The notes beneath the pieces were generated by a model. That model saw only the letters and a list, made by a program, of their open reading frames with translations, was not told the DNA's origin and did no database searches. From Fibrobacter sp. UWR3 (GTDB taxonomy: Bacteria; Fibrobacterota; Fibrobacteria; Fibrobacterales; Fibrobacteraceae), in NCBI RefSeq assembly GCF_900143055.1, contig NZ_FRCW01000011.1, positions 1 through 64,000 of the forward strand: a stretch of DNA of 64,000 bases, written 5' to 3'. Below are positions 1,571-19,871 of this stretch, in pieces (position 1 is the stretch's first letter; every line of letters begins with the position of its first letter). The position numbers and the translations under genes were made by a program.

Positions 1571-2620
1571 GTGGGTGGGCTTGTAAGCCGCAAAATTAAG
1601 AGCAACGAATGGGGAGCCAAAGTCGTTTCGGACCTTGCCGATTATATCCATACGCAGGATCCTACTTTGAAAGGCTTTAGCAAGAGAAACATCTACAACA
1701 TGGTGATGCTGTATGACGAGTATTCGTCTGGTGATTTCCTTGATTTCGTGCAATCGAAGCTGAATCCTGAATTTGTGCAGCTTGAAACTGCACAATTGGA
1801 CGTAGATGTGCTCCAAAAGAATGTGAAATCGGAAATTGTGCAGACAGCGTCTGCACAATTAGGATTGCTTCCGAGAATTGTTTTGTTGACGTCCTTCTCG
1901 AATCATGTGGAAATTCTTTGTAATTGCCGATCCTATGAGCAGAGGCTCTTTTATATGCTCTATGCAAACAAGGAACGCCTTAATTATAGGGAATTGAAAC
2001 GTTGTATCGCAAACGACACATTTACAACCCTCTTGAGGACAAAGAAGAATCTGTCGAAGGGAATGCTGAAAAGTTATCCGCAGGCAGGCATAACCTTCAA
2101 GGACGAACTTTTCCTGGATTTCTTGAATTTACCGGAAAAACATTCTGAAAACAAGCTGAAAAAATCCATCGTGGAACAGATGAAGAATTTCATTCTTGAA
2201 CTCGGCAGCAAGGAATTTCTGTTTGTTGATATGGAATATGTTCTGCAAGTGGGGTCGTCTTCGTATAAGGCTGACTTGCTCTTTTATCACAGGGGTTTGC
2301 AGGCTCTGGTGGCGATTGAACTCAAAACGACAAAGTTCCATCCCAAGGATTTGGGACAACTTGAATTTTACTTGGAGGCCTTGGACCGGGATGTTCGAAA
2401 GTCTAACGAAAATCCTTCTATTGGCATGATCCTTTGCCCCTCGGCAGATCAGGTTGTTGTCGAATATGCGATGAACCGTTCCATGAGCCCGACATTGATT
2501 GCCGAATACAAAAAGAAGTTGATTCCGCAAGAAACGGTTCAGAAATTGCTTGGTGAATACTGCGCCTCGTTCGAAACGGGAGCGTCACAAAGGAAAAAGA
2601 TTGCGAAAAAGAAACGCTGA
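1571..2620 (+). CDS. YhcG/DUF1016-type PD-(D/E)XK nuclease, N-terminally short
   Basis: The 349-residue product has a WGAKVVSDLADYI segment followed by a GFSKRNIYNMVMLY motif near residue 35, the DUF1016 N-terminal domain. C-terminally it has the nuclease core: VGSSSYKADLLFYHRGL with Asp near 233 and an IELK motif near 249-251, then LGQLEFYLEALD. YhcG-family proteins are predicted DNA nucleases often found beside restriction systems and in mobile regions. The usual ~25-30 residues before the WG motif are missing, and the frame is closed by a stop at 1532, so translation must start at the GTG (1571) or the gene is 5' truncated. Its stop codon overlaps the ATG of the epimerase fragment, marking a recombination joint. 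A small remnant of the same family occurs at 5852-5890. Confidence 0.75.
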   Translation: MGGLVSRKIKSNEWGAKVVSDLADYIHTQDPTLKGFSKRNIYNMVMLYDEYSSGDFLDFVQSKLNPEFVQLETAQLDVDVLQKNVKSEIVQTASAQLGLLPRIVLLTSFSNHVEILCNCRSYEQRLFYMLYANKERLNYRELKRCIANDTFTTLLRTKKNLSKGMLKSYPQAGITFKDELFLDFLNLPEKHSENKLKKSIVEQMKNFILELGSKEFLFVDMEYVLQVGSSSYKADLLFYHRGLQALVAIELKTTKFHPKDLGQLEFYLEALDRDVRKSNENPSIGMILCPSADQVVVEYAMNRSMSPTLIAEYKKKLIPQETVQKLLGEYCASFETGASQRKKIAKKKR

Positions 2621-3285
2621 TGCGGAATTTCGAGGCCTGCCGCCACAACCAGGTGAAGCATCTGCTCTATGCGTCGTCCAGTTCTGTTTATGGCTTGAAC
2701 GCGAAGGTGCCCTACAGCGAAGACGACAAGGTTGACAATCCTGTTAGTTTGTATGCGGCGAGCAAGAAGAGCAACGAACTGATGGCGCATTCCTACGCGA
2801 AGCTTTACGGCATCCCGATGACGGGACTGCGCTACTTCACGGTTTACGGCCCGTGGGGGAGGCCCGACATGAGCCCTATGCTCTTTGCCCGCGCCATCTC
2901 GAAGGGCGAGCCCATCAAGGTGTTCAACAACGGTGACATGATCCGCGACTTCACCTACATCGACGACATCGCCGAGGGCTCCGTGCATGCGCTCGACCAC
3001 ATGCCTGTCGCCGACAAATGCCCGAACGGGGTTCCGTATAAAGTATACAACATCGGCTGCAGCCACCCGGTGAAGCTGATGGACTTTATCGCCGAAATCG
3101 AGAACGCCTACGGCGAGCCCGCGAAGAAGGAGTTCCTGCCGATGCAGCCCGGCGACGTTTACCAGACAAACGCAGATACCACGAAGCTTGAGGCGGAATG
3201 CGGTTACAAGCCCCACTGGAGCCTGCACAACGGCATCGCCGAGTTCATGAAGTGGTACAAGAGCGACAAGAACCCGCTGAGGTAG
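2620..3285 (+). pseudogene. NDP-sugar (UDP-glucuronate-type) epimerase, 3' fragment
   Basis: The 221 residues match the second two thirds of a short-chain NDP-sugar epimerase: the Ser motif YASSSSVYG, the catalytic YAASK pair near residue 44, the substrate region GLRYFTVYGPWGRPDM and the loop DFTYIDDIAEG. The sequence closely resembles UDP-glucuronate 4-epimerases, which are about 340-350 residues long. The N-terminal Rossmann domain with the GxxGxxG NAD motif (roughly 110 residues) is absent, so the product should not bind NAD and is probably inactive. The coding sequence begins exactly where the DUF1016 gene ends, so that gene appears to have replaced the 5' part. A second 32-bp scrap of the epimerase lies at 5272-5303. 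Confidence 0.8.
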
Positions 3286-6208: not shown

Positions 6209-7594
6209 ATGGGAAAGATTACTACAGACAAGCGCGCAGGCTTTACCCTCATGGAACTGATGGTCTATATCGCCATCGTGGGTATTGTCGTTATTGTCGC
6301 GGGCCAGGCGTTCAGCAATTCGACCAAGATGCGCGTCCGCACGCAGAGCATGCTCAAGGCTTCCGAGGTTGCCGAGAACGTGGCTGCGCTGATGGTGGAT
6401 GACATTGCGCAGATGGGTGCGAAGAGTGTGACGGATGCTAGCGCTTCTGACGCAAATGCGGATGCTTTTGATGTAAAGACGAAGGTCTACATAAAATCAG
6501 ATGATCCGGATAAGGATTTATCGTCTTACCATTTGCATAAGAATAAGTTTGGAACTGGCCTTGATAGTTTGGCTGTGCTTCGTGTTAATTATAGCTCTAC
6601 CGGTGAGTATATTAGAACAGAGAAGGTTGCGTGGTTTGTCAGAGCGAACCATAAACTGTATCGTACTTGTCAAGAAATTGATGGAACTCCGGATGCTGAA
6701 ACCTGTACTGCAGATGGATTAGAGGTGGAAATAGCGGAAAATGTTGAAAAATTTTCCGTAATTCCAGCAAAGCCGAGAGTGCTAGATGCAGATGCCTCAA
6801 AACTTTTCCCAAATTATCCTGATGCATCAAAAAAAGGCTTTAGATTTATTGCCTACGAAAATACATCGGAAATGTTTTTAAAGGCAGAATCTTCGCCAAT
6901 CAAGGGCGCTAGTACTGTATCGCTTACGAATATGGTAACGAATTATAAAAGCGATGGTTCAATGCCATCAAATCCTGTCAAGCATGTTTTCTTTCTTGCT
7001 GATTCTGTTGGATCGGACGAGGCGGCGGTTACGGCATCGTCATGGAAAAATAATTGTAAAGCTTTGACGTTCCAAAAGGGCAAAACGTATGAGCTCAGTT
7101 TAGAAATGACAGACATGAACAATCAGTTAAGGATGTTTAGGCCCGGGGTTGATCATTTTGCTGTAGGTATTCGTAACGTTGGTGGGGATGCTCCTGCGGT
7201 AATTCCTGATGTTCCTGATTTTCTCATTTATCCTCCCGCCCATAGCAATGGTGCAGGTAAAAGGTCTGTGTCTTTTATGACGCGGGGAATAGATGATGGT
7301 AGTGGTAATAAAATTGACGTGACCGGCTGTATTGTATTTACCGTATCGCTTTTTTCGCCGACAGTCAGCATGTCGCCGATAACTCTATCGAATATCCAGT
7401 TATATCAGATAAATGATGGGGACTATATGTTTGATGAAACTTACACACCGTTGTTGGCAGACAATTACACACCATCGTTGGCAGACAAGAAAAACGTTAA
7501 AGCGTTCCGCATTGATATGGTTGTGAAAAAAAATGGCGAAGGTAGTTCACTCAATTTAGTTATCCCGACGCCGAGCAACGGGTCTGCGGACTAG
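6209..7594 (+). CDS. Type IV prepilin-like protein (PilW/PulJ type)
   Basis: The chosen ATG gives a short basic leader MGKITTDKRAG ending in the prepilin peptidase site G|FTLMEL, with the +5 Glu and a ~22-residue hydrophobic helix (MVYIAIVGIVVIVAG). That is a canonical class III signal for type IV pili or type II secretion pseudopili. At 461 residues it is longer than usual, with a globular domain of beta-rich, Fibrobacter-like sequence and one Cys-containing loop near 155-170. An in-frame GTG at 6146 would begin inside a terminator hairpin and was rejected. The downstream gene begins three bases after the stop region, so both are one transcription unit. No strong ribosome binding site is visible before 6209. 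Confidence 0.75.
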   Translation: MGKITTDKRAGFTLMELMVYIAIVGIVVIVAGQAFSNSTKMRVRTQSMLKASEVAENVAALMVDDIAQMGAKSVTDASASDANADAFDVKTKVYIKSDDPDKDLSSYHLHKNKFGTGLDSLAVLRVNYSSTGEYIRTEKVAWFVRANHKLYRTCQEIDGTPDAETCTADGLEVEIAENVEKFSVIPAKPRVLDADASKLFPNYPDASKKGFRFIAYENTSEMFLKAESSPIKGASTVSLTNMVTNYKSDGSMPSNPVKHVFFLADSVGSDEAAVTASSWKNNCKALTFQKGKTYELSLEMTDMNNQLRMFRPGVDHFAVGIRNVGGDAPAVIPDVPDFLIYPPAHSNGAGKRSVSFMTRGIDDGSGNKIDVTGCIVFTVSLFSPTVSMSPITLSNIQLYQINDGDYMFDETYTPLLADNYTPSLADKKNVKAFRIDMVVKKNGEGSSLNLVIPTPSNGSAD

Positions 7595-7603
7595 GAGATG
7601 TTT

Positions 7604-10600
7604 ATGATTTTGAACGAAATGCGAAAGAAAACAGGCGTGTCGCTCATCACCGTCCTTCTCTTTATGCTTGTTGCAACCATCGCGGCGACAGCAACTTACA
7701 AATGGCTCACTAGCGAAGGACGTTCGAGTGCGTCAAGAATGATGCAGGCTGAAGCGCGACAGGCTGCTGTGGCCGGTATTGAATCTGCGCGTTCGTGGAT
7801 GACCTATCATGGTAACGATGTTGGCGCTATTATCAAGCAGTATTTCGATAATAAGAAAAAACCTATTAGTTTAGACAAGGTTCTTCCTGAAACAGAAATT
7901 GGTAATAATGGGCAAGGTAGCCAGAATTTTAGTGTATCTGTGGTCGCTGTAGATGCAAGTACCAATGTCTATAAGATAAAGGTTGTTTCTACGGGTAAGG
8001 CGCGGAATGGTAGTACGCATACAGAAGCAGCTGTCATGAAAGTTTCTGGACTTTACAGGGTGATGGTGCCGACTAAGGAAGAAGATGTTTCTGCTGATTT
8101 AAATTACAACTTTGCATATTATGGTGGTTCTACGACTATGGGAACCAATTCAAAGGCTGATGCCATGTTGGTTAATGGCGACCTTACAGGAAGTCAAATA
8201 ACGGTAGAAAATGATGCTATTATTACAGGTAATCTTAGCAGCAACAATACAAACCACCTGAAATTGGGAGCGAATACTTGCGTGCGGCAAAATCTTATAA
8301 TTTCTAACCAAGGGTTGGATTCTGCTCACAATATTTACGTTGGTGGAAATGTCAATAGTTTTTCGATATCTGCAAATGGTAATAAGAAAATAACAGGTGA
8401 TGCGTATTTTAATGGTAATGTTGGTGTGTCTCAAAGTGGAGCGGGTATTACAATTTTGGGAAATGTTTCGTTGAGGGGTCGATGGGATGGTAACCCGACA
8501 GCGCATAAGACCTACATTGGAGGAAATATGTGCTTGCTGGAGAATGCGTCTAAAGTTGACTTTAAAAATCCGGGTAATGAAAACCAGGGAAATTTCGAAC
8601 TTAAGGGCTCAATGTGGGTCCCGAATGAAAGAGGTCTTGTTGGCAATAAGGTTGCGCCAAATGGTAATTATGCTTATGTAAAACTAGGAACAAACGCTAA
8701 TTCGCAGTTATATATAAAAAACGTCAACATATGTGATGAAAAATATCGTGTAGGGTCATTTCCGACTAATAGACTCTATTTTACTCCAACGACAAACTAT
8801 TATGATGATCATATCCCGAGTATTTTGTACCCCTGGACACTCTATACAGCAACTGGATCATGCCCGAATGATAATGGAGACTATTCTTATTATTATCAGG
8901 CTCATGATTTAGGATTATATCACATTAGGTACTCTTGTAAGGGAGACTGGAATAATTGTGAAAAAGAAGTGACGCGAACTCATACGGGTGATTATACGGC
9001 TTTCTATTCCGAAGCGTTGAAGGATAACTTGCATTCGGATGTATCCGGCGAACCATCCATAGCATGTGCGGATGGTATTTATTCGTATTGCAATGAGTAC
9101 TTTAAAAATCTGAATAATTGTCCGGATGATAATGCGAAAAAGGCTGTCCCCGATATCTTAAAGACGGACAGTTCCTATGGTGCCGCAAAATATCAGACAG
9201 AATGTGTTGCAAATGTGCTTGCAAAGTCTTTTGCTCAGTTGAAAGATGGAAAAGGTGTGGAAGAATTGAATAATTGCGAAAAAACCGTTCCGGCAAGTGA
9301 AAAATATGGCAGGGGGGATAATCTTTATCTTGTCGTGCGTGCAACTCCTGAAAAGTTGGGATACATTTTTACTGATCCTAAAACCGAGTTTGACGGAAAG
9401 TTTATCATTTTTGTTGATGGAACAGGATTGACGGGAAAAGTGCCTGGGACAACGTCAAGTAGCGAAGTTTTTATGTATTTACCATATGGTTCTGGGGAAC
9501 TTCAACAGTATAGTAGTCACAGCCTGTTTAAATATTTCATTTTTTCAGATGCTGACATATCAGCACTTGGAAATGGTTCTACCGGAATGTGGAAGGGCTC
9601 GTTCTACATGAAATCCGCAAACTGCGCCAAGATACCAGGAGGCTTGAATGACAAGCAGACAATGGAATATGATTCAGCAATGGCAAGCCATTTGGCTTCT
9701 GTAGGGGTTATTTGCCCAAGGTTGGCTGAAACTTGTGGTGAGGCAATGAATGAACCTGCTGATCCTACACTGACCGATGACGAACTCGTTTCAGAAGGAG
9801 GCTACGATAAGAACTATATTGCGACGGGGGCTCAACTCCATATAGAAGTAGAATCGGAATATGCGAATGCGGAAACAGTGTCCAGGCCTGATACTGTCAA
9901 GAGTTCCTTGATTGTCTTGCCTCGCGTGATATATTTGAGTGAAGAAGCCGTTGGCAAACTGACGGATTACTTCACGGTTATGCCGTTGAACAGAGCGAGT
10001 ACGCAACTTAATGGATTGACCACTTGCGCGGGAGGCCCCTCAGCGACGACCGAACTTTCTACGCAGACGTCAGTAATGAAGTTTGGTAAGAACTACAAGT
10101 GTACCTATAGGGAAGGCGACTTTGAGAGTGAATTCTATGTTTCCGTGACGGGAGAAGCCCCAACGGATGCGCGTGTTTCTTTTGAAAGTCCCGCTTCTGT
10201 GTACATAACATCTGGTACGGCCAGTACAAATGCAGTAAATCTCCTGGTTCCGGCCGTAGGTGGAACAGCTTCTCAGAATTTCAGCGTCGAAATAAATGTG
10301 ATGAATGATAACCTTACCGGTTGGACGATTACTTCCGCAAATCCCAATTTAGAGCCGAAAGCTGGTTATGACAATGTTTATGTGTATAGCGGATCTGCGG
10401 GGAATACGGCTCAAACAATTCCGTTGTTTACGGTCACGACCACATCTAGTGCTCAGACGGGATCCGTGATTTTCGCTCTGCAGTCTCCGACTAATTGCGC
10501 AATTCTCGGAAATGCTACCAAATCGTTCAATATAACAGGGTATGCGACCATCAAGCGCGAAGGAATCGACAGATATTGTGAAAAATACCCCGACAACTGT

Positions 10601-13600
10601 AAGGGTGATAATTTGAAATATGCTACTGCTGCGGATGACGAAGAGTGCGATATGGTTTCGGGGGTCTGGGTTGAAGCTATTTCTAACTGCACAACAGAAG
10701 AGGGCATGGCAAATGAACAGTGGAGATGTCCGTCGGGCAATAGTAGCAGCAATCCGATCCAACTTAGGGCGCTTTCGTTTAATTCCAACTACTGTGTCCT
10801 TTACAAGCCTGATTTGGACAACTCTATTGTTGGAGCGAAGGATGATAACGATAATCCCGACAAGCCCTATATCTTGTATGCGTCTCTCAAAAAGAAAAGT
10901 GTCCCGTTGCGTATAGAAAAGGTGGGTGCTAAGGATTCCGATACAAAAATTGAGGTTTGGAAGAAAAAAACTGGATTGGAAGAATTTGAAGTATTTAATG
11001 ACGAATGCAAGAGTACCGTTTGCGAGTATTCGATACCTGTGGGGACTACGATAAAGTTGGTTCCAAATGCGTCAGGGAACGATGCTTTCAAGTATTGGTC
11101 GTGCCACGATACTCACTGCGATTGGGTGAACAACGTGAGTGAGGAACTTGTGTTTACAATAAGTGAGAACCGTTCTTTAATGGCGCATTTCAACGAACGA
11201 GACGAACACTGCTTCTATTCCTCTCTTGATACTATGACTACGGCATGCGCTAGTGTCTCGGAACCGGAGACAAATCGCCATTGCATAGACGAATGTGACA
11301 ATTCGTCAAAATGTAATGTCGGCAGCGGTAAGTATGGAGATAACGCAAAGTGGCTTCGTGTGGCATCGACTGCTGGGGCGCAGGTTCCGTCAGTAGATAA
11401 CGGATTCCTGAGTCATATTTCAGGAGGCCAGACGTCTCTAATCATGCACCGTAATCTGGCTGGACCAAACGGAATGTTGACTGCGAGAATAAAAACTGCG
11501 AAAGTTTCTGCTGGTCATGAAAATGAAATGTTGAACGATGGCTTTGTTGTAAGGTCGAACAAGGCCGTTGGCGAATACCTTATGGTCAATATATATGGGA
11601 AATCAAATGCTGCGTACGCTCGTGTATGCCTTGCTTCTGGCCTTTCTACATCTTCGGCTAACTGCATTGAACATCGCCTTGTGAATGGCTCCGATAACTC
11701 CTTCACCATTGACCCAATGGAGCCGATAAATGTGAAGCTGACTTTAAATAGGTCCGATTTGACAGTTGTGGCTAAGGGTGCTTACAGCCACACGTTCAAT
11801 TTGTCGTCTGATTGGTCTTATGGAACCCTGAATGATGCTGAGCATCAGTATGTCGGCTTCAAACTTTCTAATCCTGAATTCCAGATTCACGATATCGGTT
11901 GGAGGACTGACGATTTTACGAATACGGCTTGCTTTGACTATCCGTCGATAAGTTGCTCGTTTGCTGCAAACTATTTGGGAGGACAGGTTCCGCTTGAAAC
12001 GGCGGTCGAACCATGGGTTGGCTACTCTAGCTGGTTTGAAAATTCTGGAAGTTGCAGTATTGACGCGTATTACTATAATGGCTGTGATATGCCCTCTAGT
12101 TACTTTGTGAATCGATGGAATGGCTCTCTTGTTGGTTCTTGCTCGCAGGGGACGGATGATGGGTACTACAAGAGTGTAAACAATGCTGCGGATGGTTTGA
12201 AACTGACTAGCGGAAACAAGTTCTACTTTGAAGAAGAAGGCTTGCATGGATATTTACACAACGATGGAAATGGGTATGTTCAAAATGGTTCCGTAAAAGC
12301 GGCTTGTCCGAATACGGATAATACCAGCATTGACTTGTTTGCAAATTGCGGACGTTTCTATGTTGGAGACCAGAAAAAATGCTCGAAAAATGTAAAAATC
12401 TTCCTGGGAAGCGAGTATATATCGGGTGAAAGAGCGTTCACTCAGAATGATGCTGTGTTCAATTTGAGAGAGGCTGCACTAAACTTTGATTTTGAAGGCC
12501 TGTCCGACGGCGCCGACATAAAGATCGTCCTTGTCGACGAAAACGGGGTTGAATCTCCAGCAAGATATCTCAGCAATTCGGCAACGTCAATCCCTGTTGA
12601 AGAATTCTTGAACAAGTACGGATTCAACCCGGAAAAGGTAAAAACGGTCCGGTTGCAGGCTTCTTCTGGCTTTACACTGAAGGCGATATCCAGTGATTGC
12701 CCGTATGCGATAACCATGAATTGCGATGCAGTTTCTGCAGGGTTTGATAAAGAAAATACGAAAAAATGGGTTATCACAGCTCCGATTGGAAACGTGTCGA
12801 ATGCGAAACATTGCAAGATAACGGCGAATTCAGGTGATATCGTTGTTCCTGGTGAATTTGTGAGCTGCAATGAAAATGGCCAGTTCATGGTGGATGATAA
12901 TGCGGAAACGCCGTTCGAAGAACATTTGCATACGGGAACTGGCTCGCTCCAATATACGTTCACGATTGGCGCATACGAGGACGATGATGCCGATTACAAT
13001 GATGCGCCGACGGTAAGTTGCAATGCGACTACTAAAGAATACAAAAAGATGACGATAGATTGTAGCATTCCGGAAAACGAAAAGACTGTGATTCAGGGGC
13101 TTGGTGTTCCAACATTGACTTATTCGTTTGAGAACTGCCCGAGTACAGGGTGCTATTACTCTGTTTCGCTGACAAGTGACATAACTGATATCGGGTATGG
13201 CGAAGGGAAACAGCCTGTTACAGGAGATATTTGGACCCCATCTGTCAATACGAAGGCGGAAAAGTTCTCGACAGGAAAATACAGTTATACAGTCAAGGCT
13301 ACGAATAAAGCTGGCGCTGTATACGAAAGTTGCACTACAGATGAATTTGAGGTAATTGCCGCTGTGGAAGCAGAAGCAAGCTGTAGTATTTCAGGGAATA
13401 CGTTGAGTATTTCTGCTTCTAGCTCTAATTATGAAAATGTCCCTGTCAAGGTTGTTGAGACGAGTGTCTTAGGGCATGTTTTGTGGACGCAGAATATGCT
13501 GGTAAATGCAAACGCTGTTTCAACATCTTTGGATCTTAATAGAGATGATGTTGTTGCGGAAGGAGGAACAATCGTTTTATCTATTCTATATGGAACGGAT

Positions 13601-14752
13601 GGACAGTCATCTTGCGGGACTTACAAGCGACCCGTCGGAGTGCCTACCGGTGAATGCTCTGTTAGTCCGGAATCAATGTATTCTGATGCTACAGAAAAGG
13701 CAACGTTCTCTGTTACCGGCGTAACGCATTGCAATAGCTGGGTCTTGAAAAAAGATGGCGTGACAGATCCTGTTTCGTCGTCAAGCGAATGTGGAGAAAG
13801 TATTTCAGTTCCGAATCTGGGCCTAGGCACTTACAGTTTGTACTTTAATGGAAGTACGGACTCGCTTTGTTCTCGAACAGTGGCAGAAAAAACGCACGCA
13901 ACGCTTTCGTGTAGTAGCATTGCTATAGAGGATAAAGATGCTGCAAGTTCTGTTGAGATAACGATTCCTCATGGGAATCTAACTGTAGGTGGATGTGAAG
14001 GTGCCGGATGTACATATACCGTTGCTGCAACGACAACTGGCGCTGCTGTTTCTGGTGCAACAGGTGATTTTACGGGTGGAGATATCACGTTCAACGCGAC
14101 AAATCCGTCTGGTACCATAGGTTATTCGCTGACATTGACTGATGATGGCGGACACACAACGGACGCATGTACCTTTGAAGTGAAGTATACTTCGGGAGGT
14201 TCCGGTGGAGATGTATGTGAATGTTCTTGTGAAAGCGCCAGTTGCTCGAATATAGAAACAGCATCTATGACATACAACAATGCAAACACTCATTGCATAT
14301 TCTTCGAAACAGCGTCGAAATTACATTGGGGCAATCAAGCTTCGCAATCTTTCAAAATTAATGGCAAGTCATTCACGAACAACCTTGAGACGGTATGCGA
14401 AAATGAAACAGCGTGCAACACGTGGCTTTCGGCAAATGTCCCCCAAAAGAAAAATGGAGGTTATTATATAGACCTTCCCACATGGACTTATGCAGAAGTG
14501 ATAATTACTGGCACTGTTCCCTCTATTTGCAGTAGCGGTAGCGGTGGTGGCGGTGGTGGCGGTAACGAAGGCAAGTGCATTGCTTTCGTGAATGGAGTCG
14601 GCGAATACGATGAACATTGTTACAAATCTGGATTGAAAAATATGGCAAATGGAAAGTGCTATACAATGAATCCTGATCGCAAACCTTCTCCTGTGTGGAT
14701 AAATGATGAAGCCAATCAGACCTGGTGGTGGATTGAAACGTCTTGCGATTAG
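7604..14752 (+). CDS. Giant PilX/GspK-like pseudopilin with adhesin-like extension (~2,382 aa)
   Basis: The N-terminus (MRKKTG|VSLITVLLFMLVATIAATATYKW) is a pilin-type helix without the +5 Glu, as in GspK/PilX tip subunits. The remainder is extracellular. Residues ~185-345 are Asn/Gly-rich beta-helix-like sequence (NGDLTG, VGGNVN, FNGNVG). A Cys-rich region lies at ~400-750 and a beta-sandwich near 850-960. A divergent InlB/bacterial-repeat domain at ~1105-1205 has KLVPNASGNDAFKYW and LMAHF. A LamG/jelly-roll-like domain lies at ~1245-1445. About four Ig-like modules, each opening with a Cys, begin near 1800, 1925, 2015 and 2100. A poly-Gly linker and a final ~60-residue Cys/Trp-rich module end the protein. 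GGAG 7594-7597 is six bases from the ATG at 7604, so that start is preferred over 7598. The gene is AT-richer than its neighbours. Likely a pilus-tip adhesin; the ligand is unknown. Confidence 0.7.
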   Translation: MILNEMRKKTGVSLITVLLFMLVATIAATATYKWLTSEGRSSASRMMQAEARQAAVAGIESARSWMTYHGNDVGAIIKQYFDNKKKPISLDKVLPETEIGNNGQGSQNFSVSVVAVDASTNVYKIKVVSTGKARNGSTHTEAAVMKVSGLYRVMVPTKEEDVSADLNYNFAYYGGSTTMGTNSKADAMLVNGDLTGSQITVENDAIITGNLSSNNTNHLKLGANTCVRQNLIISNQGLDSAHNIYVGGNVNSFSISANGNKKITGDAYFNGNVGVSQSGAGITILGNVSLRGRWDGNPTAHKTYIGGNMCLLENASKVDFKNPGNENQGNFELKGSMWVPNERGLVGNKVAPNGNYAYVKLGTNANSQLYIKNVNICDEKYRVGSFPTNRLYFTPTTNYYDDHIPSILYPWTLYTATGSCPNDNGDYSYYYQAHDLGLYHIRYSCKGDWNNCEKEVTRTHTGDYTAFYSEALKDNLHSDVSGEPSIACADGIYSYCNEYFKNLNNCPDDNAKKAVPDILKTDSSYGAAKYQTECVANVLAKSFAQLKDGKGVEELNNCEKTVPASEKYGRGDNLYLVVRATPEKLGYIFTDPKTEFDGKFIIFVDGTGLTGKVPGTTSSSEVFMYLPYGSGELQQYSSHSLFKYFIFSDADISALGNGSTGMWKGSFYMKSANCAKIPGGLNDKQTMEYDSAMASHLASVGVICPRLAETCGEAMNEPADPTLTDDELVSEGGYDKNYIATGAQLHIEVESEYANAETVSRPDTVKSSLIVLPRVIYLSEEAVGKLTDYFTVMPLNRASTQLNGLTTCAGGPSATTELSTQTSVMKFGKNYKCTYREGDFESEFYVSVTGEAPTDARVSFESPASVYITSGTASTNAVNLLVPAVGGTASQNFSVEINVMNDNLTGWTITSANPNLEPKAGYDNVYVYSGSAGNTAQTIPLFTVTTTSSAQTGSVIFALQSPTNCAILGNATKSFNITGYATIKREGIDRYCEKYPDNCKGDNLKYATAADDEECDMVSGVWVEAISNCTTEEGMANEQWRCPSGNSSSNPIQLRALSFNSNYCVLYKPDLDNSIVGAKDDNDNPDKPYILYASLKKKSVPLRIEKVGAKDSDTKIEVWKKKTGLEEFEVFNDECKSTVCEYSIPVGTTIKLVPNASGNDAFKYWSCHDTHCDWVNNVSEELVFTISENRSLMAHFNERDEHCFYSSLDTMTTACASVSEPETNRHCIDECDNSSKCNVGSGKYGDNAKWLRVASTAGAQVPSVDNGFLSHISGGQTSLIMHRNLAGPNGMLTARIKTAKVSAGHENEMLNDGFVVRSNKAVGEYLMVNIYGKSNAAYARVCLASGLSTSSANCIEHRLVNGSDNSFTIDPMEPINVKLTLNRSDLTVVAKGAYSHTFNLSSDWSYGTLNDAEHQYVGFKLSNPEFQIHDIGWRTDDFTNTACFDYPSISCSFAANYLGGQVPLETAVEPWVGYSSWFENSGSCSIDAYYYNGCDMPSSYFVNRWNGSLVGSCSQGTDDGYYKSVNNAADGLKLTSGNKFYFEEEGLHGYLHNDGNGYVQNGSVKAACPNTDNTSIDLFANCGRFYVGDQKKCSKNVKIFLGSEYISGERAFTQNDAVFNLREAALNFDFEGLSDGADIKIVLVDENGVESPARYLSNSATSIPVEEFLNKYGFNPEKVKTVRLQASSGFTLKAISSDCPYAITMNCDAVSAGFDKENTKKWVITAPIGNVSNAKHCKITANSGDIVVPGEFVSCNENGQFMVDDNAETPFEEHLHTGTGSLQYTFTIGAYEDDDADYNDAPTVSCNATTKEYKKMTIDCSIPENEKTVIQGLGVPTLTYSFENCPSTGCYYSVSLTSDITDIGYGEGKQPVTGDIWTPSVNTKAEKFSTGKYSYTVKATNKAGAVYESCTTDEFEVIAAVEAEASCSISGNTLSISASSSNYENVPVKVVETSVLGHVLWTQNMLVNANAVSTSLDLNRDDVVAEGGTIVLSILYGTDGQSSCGTYKRPVGVPTGECSVSPESMYSDATEKATFSVTGVTHCNSWVLKKDGVTDPVSSSSECGESISVPNLGLGTYSLYFNGSTDSLCSRTVAEKTHATLSCSSIAIEDKDAASSVEITIPHGNLTVGGCEGAGCTYTVAATTTGAAVSGATGDFTGGDITFNATNPSGTIGYSLTLTDDGGHTTDACTFEVKYTSGGSGGDVCECSCESASCSNIETASMTYNNANTHCIFFETASKLHWGNQASQSFKINGKSFTNNLETVCENETACNTWLSANVPQKKNGGYYIDLPTWTYAEVIITGTVPSICSSGSGGGGGGGNEGKCIAFVNGVGEYDEHCYKSGLKNMANGKCYTMNPDRKPSPVWINDEANQTWWWIETSCD

Positions 14753-14987: not shown

Positions 14988-15926
14988 CTACGCCGTTGCC
15001 AGTTCTTTCGCGGCTTGCCGCTTCAGCTTGACCACTTCCTGCTTCGGGAGCTTGGTAACACGGACAATTTTGTCAACGGAATCGCCTTCGGCAAGCATCG
15101 CGAGGGCGATTTCGTTTGCCTTGTCTTCGCCGCCCTGCAAATATGATCCCTGTTTTTCGTAAATAATATTCGTCATCCCGTCAACCTCGTTCAGGAGTGT
15201 TTCGTCGGTGTACCCTACTAAAGATACATCTTTCATGAAGTCCTTGTCAAGCAGTTTCTTCAGCTTTTCCTCGGGGATGTCCTTTTCTTCAAGAACATCC
15301 CGGAATAAGCGCAGCATCTCAGCCCTGTCGGTCGCTTCGCGCTTGCCCGGCGGGGTGCGCTTGTCGATGGCGAAGAACTTCTCGATTTCGACCAGATAGA
15401 TATCCAGCTTGTTGTAGAAAATGCGACGGTTGCGCACGATTTGCGCATGGTGCAGGTAGGTATCCGGTTCCTTCGGGAACTGGTTCTCGGTCAAAAGCGA
15501 GAGCACGTAGATGTGCGGCAGCTTGTAATCTTGCGATTTCTTGACGGTGCGCGAGACGACGCGGCTGGTGTAGTAGAAGAGTCTGTTGACGAAAAGCTTG
15601 TTGAATGTCTGCTGTACCTCGATAAGCACCGGCTCACCGGATTGCGTGGTGCCGTAGATGTCGAAGATGGCGGTCTTGTCGTTGAGTACTCCCGGATTCT
15701 CGGGTACGCCCAGCGTGTAAGTCTTGATAGCCTTGTGACCGGTGAGGCCGAGCATGGCGTTCAGGAACTTCACGGTGCGCCGAGGCTTGGCCTCGTTTGC
15801 CATGAGCATCTTGAAGATGCCATCGCTGAACGGGTAGACGTTCTTGTACTTCTTGCGGTATTTCGCCAGGTGCTCGGGATGCTCGTGTACGTCCTTGACC
15901 ATGGCGAGGAATTCCTCTCTTGTCAT
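14988..15926 (-). CDS. Rpn/PD-(D/E)XK nuclease family protein (PF12784-like)
   Basis: The 312-residue protein begins with a segment typical of the family (VYPFSDGIFKMLMANEAKPRRTVKFLNAMLG) and carries the nuclease core FDIYG ... LIEVQQ near residues 88-105, then FVNRLFYYTSRV. These proteins are recombination-promoting nucleases often annotated as transposase-like, common in many copies in gut and rumen bacteria. The C-terminal ~60 residues form a helical region rich in Lys and Glu (KANEIALAMLAEGDSVDKIVRVTKLP). Start ATG 15924-15926 follows a purine-rich stretch. No terminal inverted repeats mark it as an active element. Role in the cell: unknown, probably DNA cleavage or repair. Confidence 0.8.
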   Translation of the reverse strand: MTREEFLAMVKDVHEHPEHLAKYRKKYKNVYPFSDGIFKMLMANEAKPRRTVKFLNAMLGLTGHKAIKTYTLGVPENPGVLNDKTAIFDIYGTTQSGEPVLIEVQQTFNKLFVNRLFYYTSRVVSRTVKKSQDYKLPHIYVLSLLTENQFPKEPDTYLHHAQIVRNRRIFYNKLDIYLVEIEKFFAIDKRTPPGKREATDRAEMLRLFRDVLEEKDIPEEKLKKLLDKDFMKDVSLVGYTDETLLNEVDGMTNIIYEKQGSYLQGGEDKANEIALAMLAEGDSVDKIVRVTKLPKQEVVKLKRQAAKELATA

Positions 15927-16298: not shown

Positions 16299-19200
16299 CT
16301 ACTTGCCTTCGACGAGTTCGGTGGCGAGTTTCTTCATACCCGGGAAATCCCACTTGCCGCTACCCAGCTTCGGGATGTTCTCGACGCTGAATACGCTCCC
16401 GGGCTGCATCAGGGGCGGCATGCCGGACTTGCGCAACTTGCGGGCGATATCTTCCGGGTCTTCCGCTTCCTTCACGAGCAGCACGATGCGTTCGCCCTTC
16501 GAGGAATCGGGCACTGCCGTGACGGCGAATTCCTTGCCGTCAAGAATCTTCGTTTCGCCGATGCGGAGTTCGACTGCGGTAAGCGAGATCATTTCTCCTC
16601 CGAGTTTCGCGAAGCGGCTGTATCGCCCGAGAATCTTCACGAATCCTTCTTCGGTAATGATGCACTTATCGCCGGTCTTGTACCAGCGCCTGCCTTCGGT
16701 AATAAAGACAACGTTGTTTGTCTTTTCCTCGTCCTTCAGGTAACCCTTCATCACCTGCGGGCCGGTAACGGCGAGCATGCCTTCGGCGCCTTGCGGCAGG
16801 AACTCGTTTGTCTCGGGGTCAATGATGGCGGCTACGGTACCGGGAGGCGGTATGCCGATGGTATCGGGGTCGCTGCATTTTTCCATGGTGAGGAAGTCAT
16901 CGAGCAGCACGTTGGGCGCGTTTATCGTCGCGAGCGGGGTAAGTTCCGTGCAGCCGTAGCCTTCGTAGATATCCTTGCCGAACTTGAGCTTGAACGCCTC
17001 GCGCATTTCGGGGCGCAGCTTTTCGGCACCCGCGATAATATAGCGGAGCGTATCGAGACACATCGGGTGTACCCAGCGGTTTATCGCAATCGCGCGCAGG
17101 AACGTGGGGGTGCCCATGAGGATGGTCGTCTTGTACTGGGCGCACACGCGGGCGAGCGTCTTGATGTCGGTCGGGTCAGGGCAGAGCACCATGGGCACGC
17201 CGTCAAGGAGGGGCAGGATAAACGTGAGCGTGAACCCGAACGAATGGAAAAGCGGGAGCAGTGCAGTCATCACGTCGGTACGGCACAGCTTGATGACGTT
17301 ATCGCCCTGGAGTGCGTTCGAGATTACGTTCTTGTGCGTGAGTTCGACGCCCTTGGGCGTACCTTCCGAGCCTGAACTGAATAGGATTACCGCATCGTCG
17401 GAGAGTTTTGCGGAAGTGAACCAGAGCGGCCTCAGGATGCTCTTGGGGCATGTGCGGATAATGAATGCCGAGACGAGTTTCCCGAGCGTCGTGAGTTTCT
17501 TTTCTTCGTCGTCCAGATAAATTATCTTGCACTTTTCTGCAATGTGGACAAATTCACCATTCTTGTTGCAGAGCTTGTCGAGGAAGGCGTGCGTCGTGAC
17601 GACGGTAGAAACTTCTGCCTTTTCGATGCAGCCGAGGATGGTGTCCACGGGGGAGGAATAGTTTAGGTTGACGCTCGTCTTGCCGGTGCCGAGAATCGAG
17701 ATAATCCCGAGTGCGGCGTCGCGGCTTGTCGGGAGCATGAACCCGATGTTCTTCTCGTTTCTCGCAATTGACCTGATTGCCTTGCCGAAGTGATGGCAAA
17801 GGCGAATCATGTCGTAGCCGTTCACGTGGTTGCCTGCGGGGTCTATGAGTATCGGGCGGCTACGGCGCTTGCGCATTGCCTTGAACCAGAGCGGGATGAT
17901 GGATTCGGAATGCTCCATCGCGAGGTTCCATATGTCGCTTCCGAGGTACTGCAGGTCCTTGCGGATTTCTTTTTCGGATGCGCTTGTGGGGAGCGGCTTG
18001 GAGAACCCGACGCTTATCACGCGGTTGAACGCCTGCGGGCGCATCACGCATTCGGATGCCTGGCTGTAGCGGCTGCCCCAGAGCCCCTGGATGTAGAACG
18101 GGATTATCTGCGCGCCCGTGTTCTCGATTGCCTTGCTGTAGTCGAGCGAGAACTTTGAAACAAACGGTGTCTTGGAAACTTCGCCTTCGGGGAAGATTAC
18201 CACTGCCTCGCCGTTCAGGAGCGCCTTGCGGATTTGTTCCATGGCGGGGGCGGGGTCGCGGCGGTTAATGTCTATCACGTATTTCCCGTGCATGAACCAG
18301 CGCTGGTACCAGTCGGCAAACGTGTTGCGGTTGCTTGCGAGGCGTAGCGGGCGTGGCGATGCCATCTGGAGTACAGCCCAGTCAATAAAGCTGAAGTGCG
18401 GGCCAACAAGAAGAACGGGGCCTGTTTCGGGAATGTTCTCGACTCCCTTCACGATAAAGCGGTAGCGGAACACGAAGGCGAACGCGAAGCGGAGCGACGC
18501 GCGCAGGAGCGTCATGGGGGTCTGCTTCAGGTTCATGATAAAGCACAGCGCGAGGATTACCGCAAGAATCATGAAGCAGTAATCGAGCGTAATTGGCGTG
18601 AATATCAGGAGCAGCGTCTGCCCGCCCATGATGAGCACGAGGAACGCCATCTGAATCATGTTCGCGACGGCGTGTATGCGGCCTGCGGTATCGGGGCGCG
18701 TGAAACTTTGGAGAACCGTCCGCAATATCACAAAGCCTGCGCCGGTGCTGAACCCGATGATGCCGTAGAGAACTGCCTGCAGCCAGTCGTTGTGCACGAA
18801 CGGGATGGCGAACATCGTGATGGCGGAAGCGGCCGCGGCAAACGGGATGAGCCCGGTTTCGACAAAGCCCTTGGAAGCCCAGCTGGCGGAAAGTGCACCG
18901 ACAAAGTAACCCGCGGCAACGATGAACATCGATATGGGAATGACCGCCGTGTTGAGCATGTCGTTCATGCTCTGGATGAGTATGAGGAATATCTGCGTTA
19001 CGCCCCAGAAGGCGGTGAGCCCGAGGATGGCGAGCCGCACGATGGGGTGGCTCCAGGTGGCGGAAAAATTGCGCATGGGGGAGCGCATCTTGAGTTCGTT
19101 GTGCGATACGCCCGCGCGGATGAAGAATGCGGCGAGGGTCGAAAGTGCGCTGAGCCCGAGATAAATCCAGAGCGTAAGGTCGATGCTTACCGGGGAATCG

Positions 19201-19691
19201 GGGCGGCCCGAAAGCCCCATCGCGAAAAACGCCGCACCCGCGGTGCCGAGCACGGAGAGTGCCATGTACCACGAGTTTATTTTCACGAGGTCCTCGTTCT
19301 TGACGATTTCCTTCATTATCCCGAGTTTTGCCGGAGTGAGGACCGCGAGGAACACGCCGTATAGGCCCAGCAGGCCATAGGCCACCCATTCCGCACCCGC
19401 GACGTAGCACACGACAATCGCGATGACGGAGGCGAGCATGCCCACGGACGACCACGCCATCACGCGGCCCTTGTGGTAGTGGCCCGCGAAGTAGCTTGCC
19501 GCTGGCATCATGAAGATGCTCGGGGCAAAGATGGCGACCTGCAAAAGCATGCTGCGCCACCAGAAGGCGGAACCTTCGAACGAGAAGGAGAGCCAACGTT
19601 GGAAATGGACGAACAGGCCCATCTGAACGAAAATGCTGCAAAAGACAAACAGCAAAAACAACGGGGCACTCGGATACTTGCTCAGTTTCAT
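16299..19691 (-). CDS. Trifunctional MFS lysophospholipid flippase / acyltransferase / acyl-ACP ligase (LplT-Aas-like)
   Basis: The 1,130-residue protein fuses three domains. Residues ~1-400 form a 12-helix MFS transporter like LplT. Residues ~420-620 are a PlsC-type acyltransferase with HFSFID (HX4D, near 430) and FPEGE (near 500). Residues ~640-1,125 are an AMP-forming acyl-acyl carrier protein ligase with ILFSSGSEGTPKGVE (near 775) and a YKTGD motif. In E. coli LplT and Aas are separate and re-acylate lysophosphatidylethanolamine at the inner membrane; here one polypeptide would flip and repair it. The ATG at 19691 has AGAGGA three bases upstream and is preferred over an in-frame ATG 21 bases earlier. 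Confidence 0.85.
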   Translation of the reverse strand: MKLSKYPSAPLFLLFVFCSIFVQMGLFVHFQRWLSFSFEGSAFWWRSMLLQVAIFAPSIFMMPAASYFAGHYHKGRVMAWSSVGMLASVIAIVVCYVAGAEWVAYGLLGLYGVFLAVLTPAKLGIMKEIVKNEDLVKINSWYMALSVLGTAGAAFFAMGLSGRPDSPVSIDLTLWIYLGLSALSTLAAFFIRAGVSHNELKMRSPMRNFSATWSHPIVRLAILGLTAFWGVTQIFLILIQSMNDMLNTAVIPISMFIVAAGYFVGALSASWASKGFVETGLIPFAAAASAITMFAIPFVHNDWLQAVLYGIIGFSTGAGFVILRTVLQSFTRPDTAGRIHAVANMIQMAFLVLIMGGQTLLLIFTPITLDYCFMILAVILALCFIMNLKQTPMTLLRASLRFAFAFVFRYRFIVKGVENIPETGPVLLVGPHFSFIDWAVLQMASPRPLRLASNRNTFADWYQRWFMHGKYVIDINRRDPAPAMEQIRKALLNGEAVVIFPEGEVSKTPFVSKFSLDYSKAIENTGAQIIPFYIQGLWGSRYSQASECVMRPQAFNRVISVGFSKPLPTSASEKEIRKDLQYLGSDIWNLAMEHSESIIPLWFKAMRKRRSRPILIDPAGNHVNGYDMIRLCHHFGKAIRSIARNEKNIGFMLPTSRDAALGIISILGTGKTSVNLNYSSPVDTILGCIEKAEVSTVVTTHAFLDKLCNKNGEFVHIAEKCKIIYLDDEEKKLTTLGKLVSAFIIRTCPKSILRPLWFTSAKLSDDAVILFSSGSEGTPKGVELTHKNVISNALQGDNVIKLCRTDVMTALLPLFHSFGFTLTFILPLLDGVPMVLCPDPTDIKTLARVCAQYKTTILMGTPTFLRAIAINRWVHPMCLDTLRYIIAGAEKLRPEMREAFKLKFGKDIYEGYGCTELTPLATINAPNVLLDDFLTMEKCSDPDTIGIPPPGTVAAIIDPETNEFLPQGAEGMLAVTGPQVMKGYLKDEEKTNNVVFITEGRRWYKTGDKCIITEEGFVKILGRYSRFAKLGGEMISLTAVELRIGETKILDGKEFAVTAVPDSSKGERIVLLVKEAEDPEDIARKLRKSGMPPLMQPGSVFSVENIPKLGSGKWDFPGMKKLATELVEGK

Positions 19692-19871
19692 AAATCCTCT
19701 AGAGTTACCCAAAGTTAGTATTATGGGTATGTTTATCCACGAGTCTGTAGTTTACATTAAACTTACTTTTTAGTGACGGGGCGCCCGATTCGTTTATTGT
19801 TGGCAAGTGTTTCCATATAAACGCAAAATTTTTTAAATTTTCTTACCCGAAACCCGGATTGAAGGTAACCG

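Follow-up and report, generated by a model that had tools for sequence, protein, structure and literature searches.

The DNA examined here is a stretch of 64,000 nucleotides from Fibrobacter sp. UWR3 (contig NZ_FRCW01000011.1, positions 1 to 64,000; hereafter the window), and our subject is a giant pilin-like protein, K, encoded near its beginning. An earlier note, made from the sequence alone, had described a single ~2,380-residue tip-type pseudopilin covering positions 6209–14752. The size was correct, as K has 2384 residues, but the span contains two open reading frames, a prepilin gene, J, and K, whose start codon lies 3 nt past the J stop codon (Table 1). J is the canonical prepilin that the note had placed beside the giant; its N-terminus reads RAG followed by FTLMELMVYIAIVGIVVIV, a canonical N_methyl motif. 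Between K and its closest relative, the K of Fibrobacter sp. UBA4309 (G012), divergence at codon positions 1, 2 and 3 is 0.31, 0.25 and 0.57, the pattern that purifying selection on a protein would leave. K homologues, in one or several copies, were found in 61/61 genus genomes searched; together with the codon-position pattern this shows that the frame did not arise by chance.

K begins with the leader MFMILNEMRKKTG, followed by VSLITVLLFMLVATIAATATYKW, with Gly at position −1 and Thr at +5. This is the layout of a class III leader, short, hydrophilic and ending in Gly, ahead of about 20 hydrophobic residues that form an extended helix. The Gly at −1 is invariant across the aligned K homologues, and prepilin peptidase would cleave K after Gly13. 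The lack of Glu at +5, noticed earlier, is general: in 110 distinct K genes this residue is Thr (72), Ala (27), Val (9), Ile (1) or Met (1), and Glu in none. AlphaFold2 (AF2) models of K, built on alignments of 42 and 41 relatives (mean predicted local distance difference test score, pLDDT, 79), show a pilin-like α1 helix at residues 16–84 and then three strands. It might be argued that K is a surface protein merely resembling a pilin, with a helix that is no more than a signal or membrane anchor and with J as an unrelated neighbour, and the N-terminus profile does score below its cut-off in the window K. Against this stand the invariant Gly, the pilin helix and sheet of the model, matches to PilX_N (PF14341) in 23/35 K relatives (best E 9.7e-10) and the linkage of J, K, H and I genes across genera described below; moreover, no homologue of the K body lacking the pilin N-terminus occurs among the matches listed. 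We consider an ordinary anchor very improbable. The two outcomes that the note had named as fatal to its idea, an ordinary signal anchor and homologues lacking the helix, were thus both checked, and the results favoured the note.

The neighbouring genes were compared across K loci. In type IV pili (T4P), PilHIJK form the tip complex, with a cap subunit that has no Glu5 (review, PMC10191384). An automatic scan detected a Glu5-containing J directly upstream of K in 102/106 K genes with usable upstream DNA; all 102 J genes scored carry Glu5. At the four misses (L213, L214) J-like genes outside the scan pattern are visible by eye, two of them having Ala in place of Gly at −1. Of the 94 J genes with sufficient upstream DNA, 59 immediately follow a PilV/GspI-like gene, before which a FimU/GspH-like gene often stands. 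Most J-K pairs are thus the end of an H-I-J-K minor-pilin cassette, whose order is also kept in other genera, and K holds the place of its last gene. Several K loci adjoin genes for PilA-type major pilins; for those of this genome the best NCBIfam match is the Myxococcus PilA model, below its cut-off.

The PilV and FimU partners, missing next to K in the window, are adjacent in many relatives and are present in this genome too: contig C1 carries H and I (L083:7687-8283 and 8261-8800; G000:C1:365686-366799), followed by neither J nor K. In G012 the row is recJ, a gene of 233 residues, H, I, J and K. The C1 sequence matches G012 up to the end of I, and the match to the window sets in at roughly the first bases of J, so J-K has moved away with a break at the I/J junction, leaving H-I at the ancestral recJ site on C1 and relocating J-K to the window. 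Elsewhere J-K pairs are duplicated, or inverted relative to H-I. At L063:1765-10027, H-I on the plus strand is followed directly by an inverted J-K, with a second J-K beyond, and from this layout the J-K units look mobile or invertible.

The body of K was examined by fold searches with the AF2 models. Pfam, NCBIfam and PHROGs gave almost no matches to the body and tips of K, and a sequence search of the PDB returned only weak matches to immunoglobulin-like (Ig) arrays. The beta-helix-like module proposed earlier corresponds to the solenoid that follows the pilin sheet, beyond which the chain is mixed alpha/beta up to about residue 850. ComZ of Thermus thermophilus (6qvi) was the only solved pilin that matched K over its N-terminal half (residues 43–758; Z 8.7, 229 residues aligned); because the root-mean-square deviation (rmsd) is 25, the match is suggestive, and the solenoid is possibly ComZ-like. 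A Calx-beta/cohesin-like Ig domain and a stretch similar to the Ig domains of streptococcal pili come next, and then a concanavalin-A-like fold, which is what the earlier note had called LamG-like. This fold matched a phage receptor-binding domain (9n6a, Z 15.6), CBM66 and many lectins and GH16 enzymes. With this fold K has a pilin module fused to a domain that is not specific to T4P, the definition of a modular pilin. Further Ig-like domains, as had been expected, extend to about residue 2199. The numerous Cys residues (73 of 2384) and the Gly-rich linker near residues 2313–2324 were likewise seen. InlB repeats, also proposed, were rejected, as they had no Pfam support and were absent from the fold-search matches.

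Table 1. Features of the J-K locus, in window coordinates
Feature	Position	Strand	Details
J prepilin (GspJ/PilW position)	6209..7594	+	461 aa; Glu5; Pfam N_methyl E 5e-7
K giant tip pilin (GspK/PilX position), predicted	7598..14752	+	2384 aa
Class III leader of K	7598..7636	+	13 aa, Gly-terminated; from sequence
Mature pilin helix α1 of K, Thr at +5	7637..7849	+	residues 14-84; AF2 helices
Three strands, pilin-like sheet	7925..8047	+	residues 110-150; AF2 model
Beta-solenoid, short strands	8117..8716	+	residues ~174-373; AF2; Bactofilin matches in 8/35 members
Calx-beta/cohesin-like Ig domain	10163..10543	+	residues 856-982; 3fq4 Z 10.3, rmsd 3.0, 104 aligned
Streptococcal pilus Ig-domain-like stretch	10538..11194	+	residues 981-1199; 6bbt Z 9.5, rmsd 6.5, 182 aligned
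Concanavalin-A-like lectin/CBM66-like fold	11207..11926	+	residues 1204-1443; CBM66 4azz Z 13.6, rmsd 3.0, 155 aligned
Ig-like array	12992..14194	+	residues ~1799-2199; AF2; Foldseek to Ig arrays; profile match 9ncf E 4e-7
Tip module A, exchanged	14195..14533	+	residues 2200-2312; 46% identity to internal region of L105 K
Gly-rich linker (approximate)	14534..14569	+	from sequence
Tip module B, mobile ~60-aa Cys/Trp module	14570..14749	+	residues 2325-2384; 61% identity to L119 K over 57 aa
Rpn-type PD-(D/E)XK 'transposase' gene	14988..15926	-	convergent, just downstream of K; PDDEXK_2 E 5e-26

The C-terminal end of K behaves differently from the rest. In the genus alignment the body aligns to about residue 2060 and the end does not; against G012 the identity is 0.79 at residues 2101–2200 and 0.22 at residues 2201–2300, with the switch near residues 2200–2213. 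Conversely, among 4,278 pairings of distinct K proteins (gathered by similarity searches, so that the pairs are not independent), 15 combine bodies of less than 36% identity with tips that share 48% or more over 45 or more residues. Tip B of the window K is 61% identical to the tip of another K, the bodies of the pair being 32% identical. It also turns up in secreted Fibrobacter proteins, where it frequently forms tandem arrays with Ser-rich linkers, and in proteins that bear an M6 peptidase domain or a Por_Secre_tail signal. As far as such comparisons can tell, the C-terminal tip has been exchanged between otherwise distant K proteins over evolution; this is a new finding, as are the orphan tips and the Rpn enrichment described below. 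We also observed secreted Fibrobacter proteins that consist of repeated tip-B-like Cys/Trp modules of ~60 residues, joined by Ser-rich linkers (L198, L200, L204:6231-8615 and L211:2445-4733, the last two on the minus strand); these match no Pfam family, and the module may possibly be an undescribed binding module.

Four K genes (L066, L148, L156 and L168) are closely followed by orphan tips. The one at L066, on the opposite strand, resembles the tip of a K of another species (L056), with 89% identity in protein and 92% in DNA. At L148 a headless frame of 499 residues (10986-12485, minus strand) stands tail-to-tail with the K gene and contains Ig-like sequence and five fragments matching K-type tips. 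Inversion of the shufflon type was considered as well, and no convincing invertase or recombinase frame or shared long repeat was found in the flanks of the two loci searched, L148 and L066. Active exchange of tips, within a strain and not just over evolution, might also occur.

A further feature of the K 3' ends is the Rpn-type gene, which stands convergent to K in the window. Of 52 distinct K genes followed by 3.5 kb or more of sequence, 12 have an Rpn-like gene in that stretch, usually convergent and no more than a few hundred bases from K. As genomes contain about nine Rpn genes on average (range 1–25, 51 genomes), a proximity of about 1% would be expected by chance, and the enrichment is about 20-fold; this figure sets a phmmer count against a Pfam count, and a P value would be unsafe because the loci are related. 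In E. coli, Rpn proteins promote recombination that does not depend on RecA (PMC5350276); another study describes Rpn proteins as phage-defence toxin-antitoxin genes (PMC10327210). That Rpn has a causal part in exchanging the tips is no more than hypothetical. Programmed exchange, in which stored orphan modules would be recombined into K with the help of the Rpn nuclease and a population would re-target its pilus to plant, microbial or host ligands, is a speculative possibility that we rate as doubtful.

Across the phylum, the N-terminal profile matched in 114/168 genomes. Strong matches were confined to the same family and to a single genome from a different family of that order; in the remainder of the phylum the matches listed were weak and mainly within the solenoid part. 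The 93 complete K proteins range from 742 to 3195 residues (median ~2,430), a typical Fibrobacter K having 2.0–2.7 thousand and the short ones belonging to sister genera. Two contigs labelled Bacteroidales (L153, L165) also carry a K of the Fibrobacter type and are likely mis-binned Fibrobacter sequence. As K had no match in phage or plasmid collections, it is on this evidence neither a phage tail fibre nor a plasmid pilin. We found no description of a giant Fibrobacter pilin in the open-access literature. By its predicted features K is a modular capping tip pilin of a new layout, universal in Fibrobacter.

We then asked which machine K belongs to. The genome has a pilus gene set comprising PilB, two PilT, PilC, PilM, PilO and PilQ. 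The PilQ secretin scores just above its model cut-off and both PilT-family ATPases are above theirs; the PilB-like ATPase and the PilC-like protein score under the equivalog cut-offs. T4P gene sets were reported in all Fibrobacteres genomes of one study (PMC4704652), and the S85 genome paper called its set incomplete (PMC3079729). The PilY1 domain (PF05567) had no match in K or in the K-bearing genome, and none of 168 genomes of the phylum gave one, a negative that is weak as no control genome exceeded the cut-off; absence of PilY1 from the phylum is suggestive only. The earlier note had left a choice between a pilus and a secretion pseudopilus. K could be the GspK of a type II secretion system (T2SS), its large body placed at the secretin, for example to hold or sort cellulases, rather than a pilus adhesin: H-I-J-K sets occur in T4P and T2SS alike (PMC10191384), weak matches to GspK and GspH models were obtained, and a second secretin of this genome is found beside GspI-like prepilin genes. 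The cluster of that secretin has minor prepilin-like genes of its own, however, and the GspK equivalog model (NF037980) gives the window K 12.6 bits against a cut-off of 130. The PilA-type genes at several K loci and the variable, exchanged tips, which suit surface exposure better, also point away from secretion. A T2SS pseudopilin therefore seems rather unlikely, and K is very likely part of a type IV pilus.

Our preferred reading, which we hold to be reasonably probable, is that K, as a minor pilin, caps the type IVa pilus of Fibrobacter, with a built-in tip adhesin whose contact module is replaced by recombination. K would bind J and I and start the fibre, and since it comes first, its body of ~2200 residues would leave through PilQ ahead of the rest and sit at the tip. 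The solenoid and the Ig and lectin beads would form a stalk, with the contact module at the extreme C-terminus, so that the pilus would present the tip adhesin that a separate PilY1 provides in other diderms. Retraction by PilT would draw the cell towards the fibre, and recombination at the 3' end of K would replace the contact module and change what the pilus grips. K is probably an adhesin and is a strong candidate for the hook with which Fibrobacter grips plant fibre. Glycans are the favoured ligand because of the lectin fold and because an outgroup K of 1500 residues (L212:2273-6775, minus strand) weakly matches CBM_5_12 (E 3.6e-4, below cut-off).

Several observations weigh against this reading. 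We know of no precedent for the passage of a protein as large as K through PilQ. In the window K itself both the GspK and the PilX_N models score under their cut-offs (PilX_N 17.2 bits, cut-off 25.5), the match to ComZ is spread out, and the last ~70 residues have a pLDDT below 50. A lectin fold alone is no proof that K binds sugar, and the second secretin leaves some probability for a T2SS pseudopilus. K might also be a tip pilin with another task, such as DNA uptake, cell–cell or host binding, or phage evasion, in which case tip variation would mirror phage or host pressure. ComZ binds DNA (PMC6561018), and Rpn genes, such as those standing next to K, were connected with phage defence in another study (PMC10327210). 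The lectin fold and the CBM_5_12-like stretch favour glycans instead; Fibrobacter, according to the literature, depends on attachment to cellulose, and pili have been implicated in its adhesion. Another task of this kind thus appears improbable.

If the adhesin reading is correct, it bears on how Fibrobacter, which must touch cellulose to degrade it, takes hold. No pilus adhesin of Fibrobacter was named in the open-access papers we found, and K offers one concrete candidate gene, present throughout the genus and combining a lectin-fold domain with a variable tip, which makes the question directly testable.

Two other loci in the window were noted. A DUF1016/YhcG nuclease gene (1571-3285, plus strand) abuts an epimerase reading frame that looks 5'-truncated, since its Pfam match begins only at profile position 99; an insertion is possible. 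At 16299-19712 on the minus strand lies an Aas-like fusion protein of 1137 residues joining MFS transporter, acyltransferase and AMP ligase parts.

K was finally compared with known systems. With the GspK/PilK/PilX cap pilins it shares the lack of Glu5, the last place in H-I-J-K behind a J with Glu5, and an extra domain beyond the pilin fold. It differs in size, the GspK model having 307 positions, and in its lectin and Ig body, and it does not reach the full-length GspK model. ComZ is a GspK-like protein that has been argued to sit at the tip and that pairs with an adjacent pilin (PMC6561018). Like K, it joins a pilin helix and fold to a beta-solenoid, but its chain of ~520 residues binds DNA, whereas K has ~1,600 more residues of Ig, lectin and tip modules; the ComZ solenoid sits inside the pilin beta-sheet, an arrangement that K may or may not share.

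PilB and PilC of Streptococcus sanguinis, the latter with a concanavalin-A-like lectin module (PMC8179133), resemble K in having an adhesive module grafted on a minor pilin, although PilB is a protein of 50.5 kDa and has Glu5. The survey of modular pilins, keyed on IPR012902, cites 860 residues as its most extreme case (PMC8179133); K would probably escape such a survey and, if our reading is true, would extend pilin architecture about threefold past that case. The PilY1/PilC adhesins are, like K, large and modular and located at the tip of diderm type IVa pili (PMC10191384), yet PilY1 is not a pilin and K itself is one, which would suggest that a diderm cap pilin can fill the PilY1 role. A constant body with a variable C-terminus is shared with the PilV shufflon of IncI plasmids, where the pilus tip varies (PMC9045228, PMC5430464), and with Rhs proteins, whose orphan C-terminal tips lie beside the main gene (PMC3967940). 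In contrast to the shufflon, no invertase or clear recombination repeats were seen at the two K loci L148 and L066, and unlike Rhs, K carries no toxin; if its tips are actively exchanged, K would join the Rhs-like and shufflon-like systems as an example from a pilus.

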